Assembly (NCBI RefSeq): GCF_036226465.1
Contig: NZ_CP108476.1
Coordinates: forward strand, 5,890,001-5,954,000
DNA length: 64,000 nt
DNA from: Kitasatospora sp. NBC_01250
GTDB lineage: Bacteria > Actinomycetota > Actinomycetes > Streptomycetales > Streptomycetaceae
Direction of reading: 5' to 3'
Part shown: in pieces, positions 11,570 to 30,420 of the stretch
Position numbering within the stretch: position 1 is the first letter of the stretch
Layout: each line of letters begins with the position of its first letter
Notes under the pieces: generated by a model
Seen by the model: only the letters and a program-made list of their open reading frames with translations
Databases searched by the model: none
What the model was told of the DNA's origin: nothing
Position numbers and translations under genes: made by a program

Positions 11570-12682
11570 ATGACCACGCCCACCCAGGCGCCCATCACGT
11601 TCGAGCTCAAGCCTTCCGCGCACCCGCTGCCCGCGGCGGAGCGCGAGGCCAGGCTGGCGAACCCCGGCTTCGGCCGGATCTTCACCGACCACATGGTCAC
11701 CATCCGCTGGACCGAGGGCCGCGGCTGGCACGACGCCCAGCTCACCCCGTACGCGCCGCTGGAGATGGACCCGGCGAACATGACCCTGCACTACGGGCAG
11801 GCCATCTTCGAGGGCCTCAAGGCCTACCGCCAGCCCGACGGCTCGATCGCCTCCTTCCGTCCGGAGGCGAACGCGGCCCGCTTCCAGGCCTCGGCCCGCC
11901 GCCTGGCGATGCCCGAGCTGCCCGCCGACGCCTTCGTCAAGGCCTGTGAGCTGCTCGTCCAGCAGGACCGCGACTGGGTGCCCACCGAGGCCGAGCAGAG
12001 CCTCTACCTGCGCCCGTTCATGTTCGCCGCCGAGGCGGGCCTGGGGGTCCGGCCCGCCAACGAGTACCTCTTCATCGTGATCGCCTCCCCGGCCGGCGCC
12101 TACTTCCCCGGCGGCGTGAAGCCGGTCTCGGTCTGGCTCTCCGAGGAGTACGTGCGCGCCGCGCCCGGCGGCACCGGCGCCGCCAAGTGCGCGGGCAACT
12201 ACGCCGCTTCGCTGGTCGCCCAGGCCCAGGCCGCGGCCCAGGGCTGCGACCAGGTGGTCTGGCTGGACGCCGCCGAGCACAAGTGGATCGAGGAGATGGG
12301 AGGCATGAACCTCTACTTCGTCCTCGGCGAGGGCGAGGACGCGAAGATCGTCACCCCGGCCCTGTCCGGCGCGCTGCTGCCCGGCATCACCCGTGACTCG
12401 CTGCTCACCATCGCCGCCGACCTCGGCTACGCCACCGAGGAGCGCAAGATCTCCACCGACGAGTGGAAGCAGGGCAACGCCGACGGCACCCTGACCGAGG
12501 TCTTCGCCTGCGGCACCGCCGCCGTGATCACCCCGGTCGGCTCGGTCAAGTCCGCCCGCGCCGACTGGACCGTCGGCAAGGGCGAGCCCGGCCCGGTCAC
12601 CATGCGCCTGCGCGAGACCCTGCTCGCCCTCCAGGGCGGCACCGTCAAGGACACCCACAACTGGATGCACCCGATCGCCTGA
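11570..12682 (+). CDS. ilvE: Branched-chain amino acid aminotransferase
   Basis: PLP-dependent transaminase (fold type IV) that makes leucine, isoleucine and valine from their keto acids with glutamate, and starts their breakdown. The 370-residue length fits the BCAT-II class. The PLP lysine is Lys206 in [14 protein letters not shown]; the [17 protein letters not shown] segment and the C-terminal [15 protein letters not shown] cofactor-phosphate loop are conserved. The ATG is preceded by AAGGACA. A strong hairpin follows 8 nt after the stop, so cimA downstream has its own transcription unit. Confidence 0.97.
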
Positions 12683-12690
12683 ACCACCTC

Positions 12691-12726
12691 ACCCGGGTGT
12701 TCCACGGCGCTGGGACACCCGGGTGG
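12691..12726 (+). terminator. Terminator after ilvE
   Basis: A 14-bp stem (12691-12704 with 12713-12726, one G-U pair) with an 8-nt loop, directly after the ilvE stop. Confidence 0.85.
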
Positions 12727-12836
12727 GTAGCCTCGAAGCGTTCCGCTCCGAGCCCTTCTCCTTCACCCTCGACACCGATCGCCTGTCCTGATACTCCCGT
12801 CCCGGATCGCGAGACGTCCCGACCGCCTTCCGGATC

Positions 12837-12905
12837 ATGTGCCAGACTTCCAGCGTGTCCTCGCTCGCGCTCATTATTGGCAGCAGGCGCGCCGGTCCGC
12901 AGTGA
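12837..12905 (+). CDS. Putative cimA leader peptide with two rare Ile codons
   Basis: A 22-codon frame (ATG 12837, or a 16-codon version from GTG 12855) reads ...SSLALIIGSRRAGPQ and stops at 12903-12905. Its two consecutive Ile codons are ATT ATT (12873-12878), exceptionally rare in a genome that uses ATC almost exclusively. It ends 54 nt before a U-tailed hairpin and 256 nt before cimA, an isoleucine-pathway gene. That is the architecture of ribosome-mediated attenuation: Ile-tRNA shortage would stall ribosomes at the ATT pair and change downstream folding. No strong ribosome site precedes either start, and the attenuation reading is inference. Confidence 0.55.
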   Translation: MCQTSSVSSLALIIGSRRAGPQ

Positions 12906-12959
12906 CCGTTCCGCAGTGATCCCCGCGGGACGACCACCGTGTCTCAAGACCCGCGCGCA

Positions 12960-12993
12960 GACCTCTCGCACCCGCGAGGGGTCTTTTGTTTTT
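12960..12993 (+). terminator. Attenuator terminator in the cimA leader
   Basis: A 10-bp stem (12960-12969 with 12974-12983, one G-U pair), 4-nt loop, then TTTTGTTTTT: one of only two classic U-tailed terminators in the window, and it lies upstream of a gene rather than after one. The upstream GCGGG at 12925-12929 can pair either with CCCGC at 12950-12954 or with CCCGC at 12971-12975 inside the terminator, giving mutually exclusive folds. Confidence 0.7.
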
Positions 12994-13161
12994 GCCAGGT
13001 CCGGCCCACCCCACGCCGGCCGGCCAGGACCCGACGGACCGGCTCCAGCCCACCAGGCGGGAGCGGGAGCCGGGTGGCGCGCGGGATGGTGGACAGTGGA
13101 GCCGGGGACGGAAGACCGGCAGACAAGCAGAGACATCTCCCCGAACGGAGAAACCAGGGCC

Positions 13162-14805
13162 ATGACCGACGGCAGTACGCGTCACCCCGACGACAGCTTC
13201 CACGTCTTCGACACCACCCTGCGCGACGGCGCGCAGCGCGAGGGCATCAACCTCACGGTGGCCGACAAGCTGACCATTGCACGGCACCTGGACGACTTCG
13301 GAGTCGGGTTCATCGAGGGCGGCTGGCCGGGCGCCAACCCCCGTGACACCGAGTTCTTCGCCCGGGCCGCCACCGAACTCGACCTGAAGCACGCGCAGTT
13401 GGTGGCCTTCGGGGCGACCCGCCGGGCCGGCGGCGAGGCGGCGACGGACCCGCAGCTGGCGGGGCTGCTCGACTCCGGAGCCCCGGTGATCACCCTGGTC
13501 GCCAAGGCGCACGACCGCCACGTGGAGCTGGCCCTGCGCACCACGCTGGACGAGAACCTGGCGATGATCCGGGACAGCGTCGCCCACCTGCGCGCGCGCG
13601 GGCGCCGGGTCTTCGTCGACTGCGAGCACTTCTTCGACGGCTACCGGGCCAACCGCGACTACGCCCTCGCCGTGGTGCGCACCGCGCAGGAGGCGGGCGC
13701 CGACGTCGTGGTGCTCTGCGACACCAACGGCGGGATGCTGCCCGCGGGCATCCGCGAGACCGTCGCCGAGGTGCTGGCCGCCACCGGCGCCCGGCTCGGC
13801 ATCCACGCGCAGGACGACACCGGCTGCGCGGTGGCCAACACGCTGGCCGCGGTGGACGCCGGGGCCAGCCACGTCCAGTGCACGGCCAACGGCTACGGCG
13901 AGCGGGTCGGCAACGCCAACCTGTTCCCGGTGGTCGGCGCGCTGGAGATCAAGTACGGGCGCCCGGTGCTGCCGCTCGGCAAGCTGGCCGAGATGACCCG
14001 GATCTCGCACGCCATCGCCGAGGTGGTCAACCTGACGCCCGGCACCCACCAGCCGTACGTGGGCGTCTCCGCCTTCGCGCACAAGGGTGGCCTGCACGCC
14101 TCCGCGATCAAGGTCGACCCGAACCTGTACCAGCACATCGACCCCGAGCGGGTCGGCAACACCATGCGGATGCTGGTCTCCGACATGGCCGGGCGGGCCT
14201 CGGTGGAGCTCAAGGGCCGGGAGCTGGGCTACGACCTCTCCGCCGACCGCGAGCTGGTGGGCCGGGTGGTCGCCAAGGTCAAGGAGCAGGAGAACCTCGG
14301 CTACACCTACGAGGCCGCCGACGCCTCCTTCGAGCTGCTGCTCCGCGACGAGGTGCACGGCAGCCGCGAGCGCTTCTTCACGCTGGAGTCCTGGCGCACC
14401 ATCAGCGAGCAGCGGCAGGAGGGCGGCACGGGCAACGAGGCCACGGTGAAGCTCTGGGCCAAGGGCGAGCGGATCGTGGCCACCGGCGAGGGCAACGGGC
14501 CGGTCGACGCGCTGGACAAGGCCCTGCGCACCGCGCTGGAGCGGATCTACCCGCAGCTGGCCAAGCTGGAGCTGGTGGACTACAAGGTCCGGATCCTGGA
14601 GGGCCGGCACGGCACCGGCTCGCGCACCCGGGTGCTGGTGGAGTCCGCCGACGGCAGCGCGACCTGGTCCACCGTGGGTGTCGCGGACAACGTGATCGAC
14701 GCCTCCTGGCACGCGCTGGACGACGCCTACACCTACATCCTGCTCAAGTCCGGCCTCGAACCGGAGCACCGGGAGCCGGGGCACCGGGAGACGGAGCAGG
14801 GCTGA
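13162..14805 (+). CDS. cimA: Citramalate synthase (LeuA-like)
   Basis: Condenses pyruvate with acetyl-CoA to (R)-citramalate, a threonine-independent route to 2-oxobutyrate for isoleucine. The 547 residues match the long CimA type: an HMGL-like TIM barrel (about 1-290) opening with VFDTTLRDGAQREGINL, then GTHQPYVGVSAFAHKGGLHASA, and a C-terminal LeuA dimer/regulatory domain (about 400-540, TVKLWAKGERIVATGEGNGPVDALDKAL). The metal motif normally read as HxHND is His215-Ala-Gln217-Asp-Asp here (IHAQDDTGCAVAN). The ATG has a GGAGA site upstream. A 479-bp gap with a leader peptide and attenuator precedes it, and a palindromic terminator follows. Confidence 0.9.
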   Translation: MTDGSTRHPDDSFHVFDTTLRDGAQREGINLTVADKLTIARHLDDFGVGFIEGGWPGANPRDTEFFARAATELDLKHAQLVAFGATRRAGGEAATDPQLAGLLDSGAPVITLVAKAHDRHVELALRTTLDENLAMIRDSVAHLRARGRRVFVDCEHFFDGYRANRDYALAVVRTAQEAGADVVVLCDTNGGMLPAGIRETVAEVLAATGARLGIHAQDDTGCAVANTLAAVDAGASHVQCTANGYGERVGNANLFPVVGALEIKYGRPVLPLGKLAEMTRISHAIAEVVNLTPGTHQPYVGVSAFAHKGGLHASAIKVDPNLYQHIDPERVGNTMRMLVSDMAGRASVELKGRELGYDLSADRELVGRVVAKVKEQENLGYTYEAADASFELLLRDEVHGSRERFFTLESWRTISEQRQEGGTGNEATVKLWAKGERIVATGEGNGPVDALDKALRTALERIYPQLAKLELVDYKVRILEGRHGTGSRTRVLVESADGSATWSTVGVADNVIDASWHALDDAYTYILLKSGLEPEHREPGHRETEQG

Positions 14806-29868: not shown

Positions 29869-29940
29869 TGGGGTATGGTGTAATTGGCAGCACGAGTGAT
29901 TCTGGTTCATTTAGTCTAGGTTCGAGTCCTGGTACCCCAG
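29869..29940 (+). tRNA. tRNA-Gln (CTG anticodon)
   Basis: A 72-nt cloverleaf: acceptor TGGGGTA/TACCCCA, anticodon loop TTCTGGT with CTG, T-arm GGTTCGAGTCC, discriminator G. The 3' CCA is not encoded. First of the array. Confidence 0.96.
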
Positions 29941-29971
29941 CGCAGTACCCGCAGTATCGTCAGTCCAGCAA

Positions 29972-30044
29972 GCCCCCGTTGTGTAGCGGCCTAGCACGCT
30001 GCCCTCTCACGGCAGTAGCGCCGGTTCGAATCCGGTCGGGGGTA
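29972..30044 (+). tRNA. tRNA-Glu (CTC anticodon), copy 1
   Basis: 73 nt; acceptor GCCCCCG with CGGGGGT (G1-U72 wobble), anticodon loop CTCTCAC giving CTC, T-arm CCGGTTCGAATCCGG, discriminator A. CCA not encoded. Confidence 0.96.
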
Positions 30045-30072
30045 CGCAATGCAGAACATATGCATAGCAGGA

Positions 30073-30145
30073 GCCCCCGTTGTGTAGCGGCCTAGCACGC
30101 TGCCCTCTCACGGCAGTAGCGCCGGTTCGAATCCGGTCGGGGGTA
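30073..30145 (+). tRNA. tRNA-Glu (CTC anticodon), copy 2
   Basis: Sequence identical to copy 1 across 73 nt. The three bases after the discriminator read CCA (30146-30148), unlike copies 1 and 3. Confidence 0.96.
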
Positions 30146-30229
30146 CCAGATCCTTCATCAGTCACCATCCGGATGAGGCCGATTCGATCGAGTCGGACCC
30201 CGGAGGCGGCGAAGCTGGATCGCCAGTTT

Positions 30230-30302
30230 GCCCCCGTTGTGTAGCGGCCTAGCACGCTGCCCTCTCACGGCAGTAGCGCCGGTTCGAATCCGGTCGGGGG
30301 TA
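30230..30302 (+). tRNA. tRNA-Glu (CTC anticodon), copy 3
   Basis: Identical 73-nt sequence to copies 1 and 2; followed by TCAGC, so no encoded CCA. A CCGATGG/CCATCGG hairpin (30315-30337) lies between it and the last tRNA, perhaps a processing signal. Confidence 0.96.
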
Positions 30303-30348
30303 CTCAGCAGTTCGGCCGATGGTCTAAAACCATCGGCTTGATTGCTGT

Positions 30349-30420
30349 TGGGATATGGTGTAATTGGCAGCACGAGTGATTCTGGTTCATTTAGTCTAGG
30401 TTCGAGTCCTGGTATCCCAG
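30349..30420 (+). tRNA. tRNA-Gln (CTG anticodon), copy 2
   Basis: 72 nt. Differs from the first tRNA-Gln by one compensatory acceptor pair (G5-C68 there, A5-U68 here: TGGGATA/TATCCCA). CCA follows the discriminator directly in the DNA. Confidence 0.96.

Follow-up and report, generated by a model that had tools for sequence, protein, structure and literature searches.

The cimA gene in the 64,000-nt stretch of the Kitasatospora sp. NBC_01250 chromosome analyzed here (the window) is likely preceded by a cis-acting transcription attenuator that would sense charged tRNA-Ile as a 16-codon leader is translated. Sequence comparison supports the leader frame, its isoleucine codons, a stem overlapping the end of the frame (P1), an intrinsic terminator hairpin (PT), the spacing of these elements and their link to cimA (Table 1). 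An isoleucine leader-peptide attenuator had been proposed at this site in an earlier note on the DNA; the isoleucine-containing peptide and the terminator in front of cimA are borne out, and the mutually exclusive antiterminator is not.

Table 1. Elements of the proposed cimA leader, with coordinates in the window
Feature	Position	Strand	Remarks
Candidate upstream element GGATCGCGAGAC	12804..12815	+	51 nt 5′ of leader start; candidate operator
Extended -10-like element TGC-CAGACT	12840..12848	+	Present in relatives 5–8 nt 5′ of leader start
Leader peptide ORF, GTG to TGA, 16 aa VSSLALIIGSRRAGPQ, probably leaderless	12855..12905	+	Frame kept in relatives
Tandem regulatory Ile codons ATT ATT	12873..12878	+	Conserved in Streptomycetaceae units
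P1 stem, 5′ strand (GCGCGC C GGTC)	12887..12897	+	14 nt 3′ of first Ile codon; folds, covariation
P1 stem, 3′ strand (GACC C GCGCGC)	12948..12958	+	Directly abuts terminator; folds, covariation
Intrinsic terminator hairpin PT, 11 pairs	12959..12984	+	Terminator search, covariation
U tract, proposed premature 3′ end	12985..12993	+	
cimA, citramalate synthase, proposed regulated gene	13162..14802	+	TIGR00977 equivalog above cut-off; Pfam HMGL-like, LeuA_dimer

Locus organization

The downstream gene, which the earlier note had assigned to the isoleucine pathway as cimA, does encode citramalate synthase, as its product scores 629.5 bits against TIGR00977 (cut-off 450). It starts 168 nt after the U tract. 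The gene 5′ of the leader unit (11570–12682) we take to be ilvE; ilvE lies within 1800 nt upstream in only 29 of 80 loci, and the leader stays beside cimA regardless. In the gap between terminator and cimA, the block GGATGGTGGACAGTGGAGCCGG (13084–13105) looks conserved by eye in Kitasatospora and has counterparts in Streptomyces; a second promoter, or else an RNA element, could account for it. A search of the whole window with Rfam covariance models at the gathering score returned five tRNAs only, with no riboswitch, T-box or ilvB-OMG, and at 12680–13165, with E values up to 1, the sole match was ar14 (17.4 bits versus 58.8). Five tandem tRNA genes are located at 29869–30420, three of them scoring identically.

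Distribution of the leader and association with cimA

All 70 genomes searched in the genus contain DNA matching the leader unit. A covariance model built from 54 Streptomycetaceae sequences (R1) had a match in 149 of 150 family genomes, the sole miss being 71% complete, and in 16 of 396 genomes across the phylum, twelve of which belong to the family. The second model (R2), built after distant matches were added, had a match in 179 of 394 genomes across the class, family included, and in 72 of 138 genera. The RNA models contain no coding sequence of the downstream gene. For the class set, 78 loci spread over genera (L208–L285) were drawn from 110 among the matches listed outside the family, with L134–L136 in addition. 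The gene 3′ of these 78 loci, identified by tblastn, is cimA in 75 (the call at L271 rests on only 33 aa of a cut sequence stretch), a small ACT-like protein in two (L259 and L261, the latter with a sub-threshold Pfam ACT match) and ilvB in one (L275). At L137, which belongs to another class, the leader is followed by leuA (TIGR00973, 713.5 bits; cut-off 598.7). The leader amino acid follows the downstream gene: Ile at cimA, Val-Val (..RVVP) at the one ilvB and Leu-Leu-Leu (MSQNLLLT) at the one leuA.

The association was also analyzed from the side of the gene. A CimA protein search found cimA in 75 of 98 class genomes, and 73 of these genes were assessable, the other two (in G575 and G628) lying at contig ends. 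A model-found leader adjoins 41 of the 73, eight of them by coordinates alone. When the 450 nt upstream of the other 32 were read independently of the model, the layout with its isoleucine codons was present in 15, which brings the total to 56 of the 73 assessable class cimA genes; in the remaining 17 the layout was not found within 450 nt upstream.

Second copies of the leader (MQQQLIISRGVPAPCREE and similar) occur in three Kitasatospora genomes (L154, L155 and L156). Those of L154 and L155 precede a small ACT-like protein (sub-threshold ACT match for L154), which could serve a branched-chain enzyme as regulatory subunit, and those of L155 and L156 contain a single Ile codon each. In four loci of one family (L292, L293, L294 and L304), no terminator leader was found upstream of cimA, and by eye another conserved GC-rich stem-like stretch precedes the gene (CGCGCGCTCCGGTC...GACCGGGCGCG in L292), possibly another form of control. 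A search for cimA relatives in viral contigs gave no yield.

Leader peptide and isoleucine codons

The LALII frame read in the earlier note is present, as CTC GCG CTC ATT ATT GGC at 12864–12881 encodes LALIIG. Its proposed start, ATG 12837, was rejected, as this codon overlaps the promoter region and is absent in some relatives (e.g. L004 and L017). These relatives contain TGTGCCAGACT, followed after 5–8 nt by an in-frame GTG equal to GTG 12855. The -10-like CAGACT is common to relatives 5–8 nt 5′ of the in-frame GTG, a spacing that was part of the search rule in the family, and 53 of 74 class leaders have NAnnnT at this distance 5′ of their start. The leader probably starts at GTG 12855, giving 16 aa, on a leaderless mRNA, and would resemble the leaderless leader peptides described for Streptomyces lividans (PMC8079986). 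Codon loss or gain in leaders L050 and L074 stays in frame, and the peptide outside the key codons varies freely among leaders. In some clades (L048 and L050), the frame end shifts or the frame stops early, and the downstream RNA is much the same. The start-codon rule left four of the 78 class leaders unparsed; by eye, three of these (L250, L281 and L282) contain Ile codons, and the fourth (L275) contains Val-Val. Among the 74 parsed leaders, the stop codon is TAG in 40, TGA in 29 and TAA in five, and the G of TAG is often the first base of P1.

The rarity of ATT that had been claimed for this genome holds in the window: among the 289 Ile codons of 29 high-GC3 ORFs that do not overlap, three are ATT, and in cimA one of 18 is. 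ATT is probably a slow codon that is read by wobble. In 97 distinct Streptomycetaceae units, for which entry required at least one Ile codon (109 of 110 loci passed), the first Ile codon is ATT in 96, and two Ile codons are present in 91. One further locus (L064), with an ATG start, is outside this set and has the same leader. In 79 Streptomycetaceae loci, ATT makes up 130 of 152 leader Ile codons, as against 5 of 1352 over the initial 1500 bases of the cimA match. The corresponding numbers for 71 class loci are 89 of 165 versus 22 of 1076 in the matched cimA stretches, and at least one ATT is present in 171 of 171 model-found leaders (97 family and 74 class), with the Ile and ATT counts of the class set biased upward because its search model includes the Ile codons. 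As a check on this bias we used the 15 leaders that were read upstream of cimA, 11 of them in genomes without a model match: Ile is present in all 15 and ATT in 13. The Ile codons are thus kept beyond Streptomycetaceae, and the lack of conservation that the earlier note had named as counting against its proposal is not observed. Ile is constant in cimA leaders, and Leu, Val, Met or Thr codons, which vary, are often located just before it. With Leu or Val codons often placed ahead of Ile, sensing may not be restricted to isoleucine.

P1 and terminator structure

A terminator search of 12500–13300 returned two sites (the mean for shuffled sequence was 0.2), a weak 5-pair hairpin on the other strand and PT, an 11-pair hairpin with the U tail that the earlier note had described. 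The segment 12837–12996 folds 4.3 sd more stably than dinucleotide shuffles. The 'mutually exclusive pairings' of that note did not survive comparison, as conserved alternatives to the terminator pairs amount to only ∼4 bp and P1 and PT are compatible. P1 meets PT without a linker and without sharing a base, and minimum-energy folding yields both in every one of the 97 family units and 74 class leaders, so that all 171 model-found leaders fold compatibly and no base-sharing antiterminator of the classical trp type was found among them. In six leaders folded in the states that leave P1 free to form, the minimum-energy folds likewise contain both P1 and PT. With P1 free, none of the 74 class leaders has a PT pairing probability below 0.991, and none of the 97 family leaders has one below 0.998; with a ribosome at the stop codon, the median for the 74 class leaders is 0.999 and the lowest value 0.419. 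The helices kept in 80% of 54 sequences are P1, PT, a CGGTC/GACCG hairpin at the stop codon, one-register shifts of P1 and the 4-bp options. Two other candidate pairings were rejected by eye: CCTCGC of the 5′ leader with GCGAGG of the 3′ terminator arm is not kept in L045, L048 and L085, and pairing of the 3′ strand of P1 with the 3′ terminator arm is absent in L136.

The covariance of the leader, which the earlier note had put forward as a check, was limited among close relatives, where only 3 of 21 pairs are doubly changed, and became apparent in wider sampling. In 30 diverse sequences, six pairs of P1 and PT differ at both partners, a count that 1 of 500 shuffles reached, and in 59 sequences 15 of 21 pairs do, a count that 0 of 500 shuffles reached, with further pair types matched by 10 of 500 shuffles; both alignments were fitted to the model, which favors it. 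When pair partners in the 59-sequence alignment were slid by 1–3 columns, pairing fell from 96% to 34–60%. The P1 sequences themselves diverge widely, as in L257 (GCGCAGCGG/CCGCTGCGC) and L136 (GCGCGACG/CGTCGCGC).

The spacing of the elements is narrow. The distance from the first Ile codon to P1 is 11–14 nt in 97 of 97 family units and 9–15 nt in 72 of 74 class leaders; the other two have distances of 20 and 23 nt and an extra, earlier Ile codon. None of the 97 family units has a nucleotide between P1 and PT, and in the class this linker is 0 nt in 65 of 74 and 1 nt in 9 of 74. In the 15 leaders that were read upstream of cimA, the first distance is 10–15 nt, and the linker is 0 nt in ten, 1 nt in three and 2 nt in two. 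Chance also produces such contact to some extent: of 2960 folds in which the upstream segment had been shuffled, 887 contained an abutting stem.

Proposed mechanism and alternative explanations

In the mechanism that we propose, transcription would begin at or near GTG 12855, a position suggested by the promoter spacing, so that the mRNA would be leaderless. When Ile-tRNA is plentiful, the ribosome would reach TGA 12903, and its footprint would cover the 5′ strand of P1 (12887–12897); with P1 blocked, PT (12959–12984) would fold, and transcription would end near 12990. When Ile-tRNA is short, the ribosome would stall on ATT ATT (12873–12878). A ribosome extends ∼12 nt past the first base of its A-site codon, which would place its front edge at or just before 12887 and leave P1 free to form. 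P1, located next to PT, would then hinder completion of PT in the RNA polymerase exit channel, alone or with the ribosome at its foot, which is the least certain step of the scheme, and with PT hindered the polymerase would read through into cimA. By the same geometry, a ribosome at the stop codon would cover the 5′ strand of P1 and end 8–42 nt before PT. Since a ribosome with its A site at the first Ile codon would just free P1 and a ribosome at the stop codon would cover it, P1 would exist on starvation and not in plenty, and given the needs of a biosynthetic gene it would have to favor readthrough. Because it shares no base with PT, P1 would act by standing against it; it does not weaken PT by folding energy, so the exit-channel step is without thermodynamic support. 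That the leaders form a class-wide attenuator without a base-sharing antiterminator, in which P1 blocks PT solely by abutting it (with or without the ribosome) and a slow, rare Ile codon has been selected for tuning, is a serious possibility, if one that falls somewhat short of probable.

A variant of this scheme, which we would put forward only tentatively, treats P1 itself as inert: the stem would loop out the intervening RNA, and a stalled ribosome beside the terminator and RNA polymerase would block termination. The distances from Ile codon to P1 (mostly 11–14 nt) and from P1 to PT (0–2 nt) are held while P1 spans 22–65 nt in the class set, as this variant would lead one to expect, and in Corynebacterium glutamicum ilvBNC loss of the leader start codon leaves expression low, not high (down 80%; cited in PMC11857589), which is an ill fit for P1 alone as sufficient. 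However, nothing separates such bridging from blocking by P1 alone. A classical trp-type attenuator, in which a conserved antiterminator pairs with one terminator arm and excludes the terminator, is improbable. GGTC at 12894–12897 could pair with GACC in the terminator arm, a 4-bp option that is kept in 52 of 54 sequences, and the adjacent antiterminator and terminator of C. glutamicum ilvBNC do overlap by three bases, the trinucleotide GCC (PMC11857589), whereas the cimA stems share none. In folds of six leaders, however, the 4-bp option is outcompeted by the 10 pairs of P1, short-form leaders such as L257 show no helix that competes with PT, and the PT pairing probabilities given above remain high throughout with P1 free.

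It is most improbable that PT is an unconditional terminator between transcription units, with cimA served by a separate promoter at 12994–13161 and the peptide incidental. The 168-nt gap with its conserved-looking block would accommodate such a promoter in the window, but many class loci leave hardly any gap before cimA: a possible cimA start is at most 60 nt from the U tract in 47 of the 64 class loci in which one was found (74 examined), which leaves little room for another promoter. Moreover, from family to family and with differing genes upstream, the Ile codons, frame, P1 and PT accompany cimA as a single unit.

Candidate upstream element

Of 79 Streptomycetaceae loci, 65 contain the pattern G[CG]ATnnnGAGAC at 51–53 nt 5′ of the leader start. 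CGSATNNNGAGACG has six matches in the 9.0-Mb genome versus two for a control read backward. Two of the six, at 12803–12816 and at L158:1079–1092, lie 52 and 65 nt 5′ of the cimA and ilvB leader starts, respectively; of the other four, three are in long high-GC3 open frames and the fourth is L321. The shared element may bind a common branched-chain regulator. NdgR is an unlikely candidate for this factor, as its published motif is GTCCAC..GGAC-like (PMC4340878). A search of the same genome with the pattern GCATNNTGAGACG gave no matches.

Relation to known leaders

In attenuators of the Escherichia coli trp/his type, a leader peptide with tandem regulatory codons and an intrinsic terminator are combined with a stalling logic. 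The cimA leader shares the codons, the peptide, the terminator and this logic, and differs in that no antiterminator sharing bases with the terminator was found. It contains the short ORF with codons for the pathway product and the intrinsic terminator before the gene that are expected of attenuators in general. More specifically, it is similar to the actinobacterial ilvB/ilvL attenuators (S. lividans ilvL, the C. glutamicum ilvBNC 'ilvB-II motif' and Mycobacterium tuberculosis ilvB1) in having a branched-chain peptide at or near the 5′ end and a stem that overlaps the end of the peptide frame, with an adjoining terminator. The ilvB leader of the same genome (L158:1144–1262, MTTRILVLGGRVG) has the same zero-linker layout. 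The cimA leader differs from the ilvB type, which lies upstream of ilvB with a mix of Ile, Val and Leu codons, in that it would regulate cimA (the downstream gene in 75 of 78 class loci), and its Ile is constant while the preceding Leu/Val vary. It is closest to the actinobacterial ilvB type and lacks the base sharing of the classical type.

Among 30 ilvB loci scanned across the phylum, six have a recognizable leader, with linkers estimated by eye at 3 nt (L197), 1 nt (L199), ∼5 nt (L200) and 0 nt (L203, L204 and L207); no recognizable leader was seen in the others. Linkers of 0–2 nt at cimA versus 0 to ∼5 nt at ilvB indicate that stem and terminator adjoin tightly at cimA and less so at ilvB, which lowers the odds of a class-wide attenuator based on an abutting stem.

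No published cimA leader was found among the titles and abstracts listed in searches of open-licence papers. Table 4 of the RNA-seq reannotation of S. lividans TK24 lists eight leaders, none of them at cimA (PMC8079986), and the Corynebacterium paper on the 'ilvB-II motif' describes a similar arrangement, with no mention of cimA in the part of the text available (PMC10272879). A search for SCO5529 led to a single paper, on Lon protease, and was otherwise without yield. A 2005 survey of Actinobacteria described elements for Trp, Cys and Leu genes and T-boxes at ileS, and its available sections report no conserved structures for other amino-acid pathways (PMC1262725). The LEU element 5′ of actinobacterial leuA in that survey likewise belongs to a branched-chain gene of Actinobacteria but is a pseudoknot (PMC1262725). 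Attenuation of M. tuberculosis ilvB1 through LVVI codons was shown by alanine replacement (PMC13236596). In Streptomyces coelicolor, codon replacement in the ilvB leader was without effect on regulation (cited in PMC1262725), and mutations in branched-chain leaders gave results at odds with classical attenuation (PMC1262725).

Biological significance

With the leader described here, cimA, the threonine-independent entry to isoleucine, would join the leader-controlled genes of Actinobacteria, and one layout appears to be reused for isoleucine (cimA), valine (ilvB) and leucine (leuA). The proposed mechanism offers a simple model for the puzzling branched-chain leaders of this phylum. As the forced codon makes up ∼1% of Ile codons, the leader offers a clean experiment of nature on rare-codon sensing. 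The element would also be a candidate control point in strains whose antibiotics derive from branched-chain precursors.
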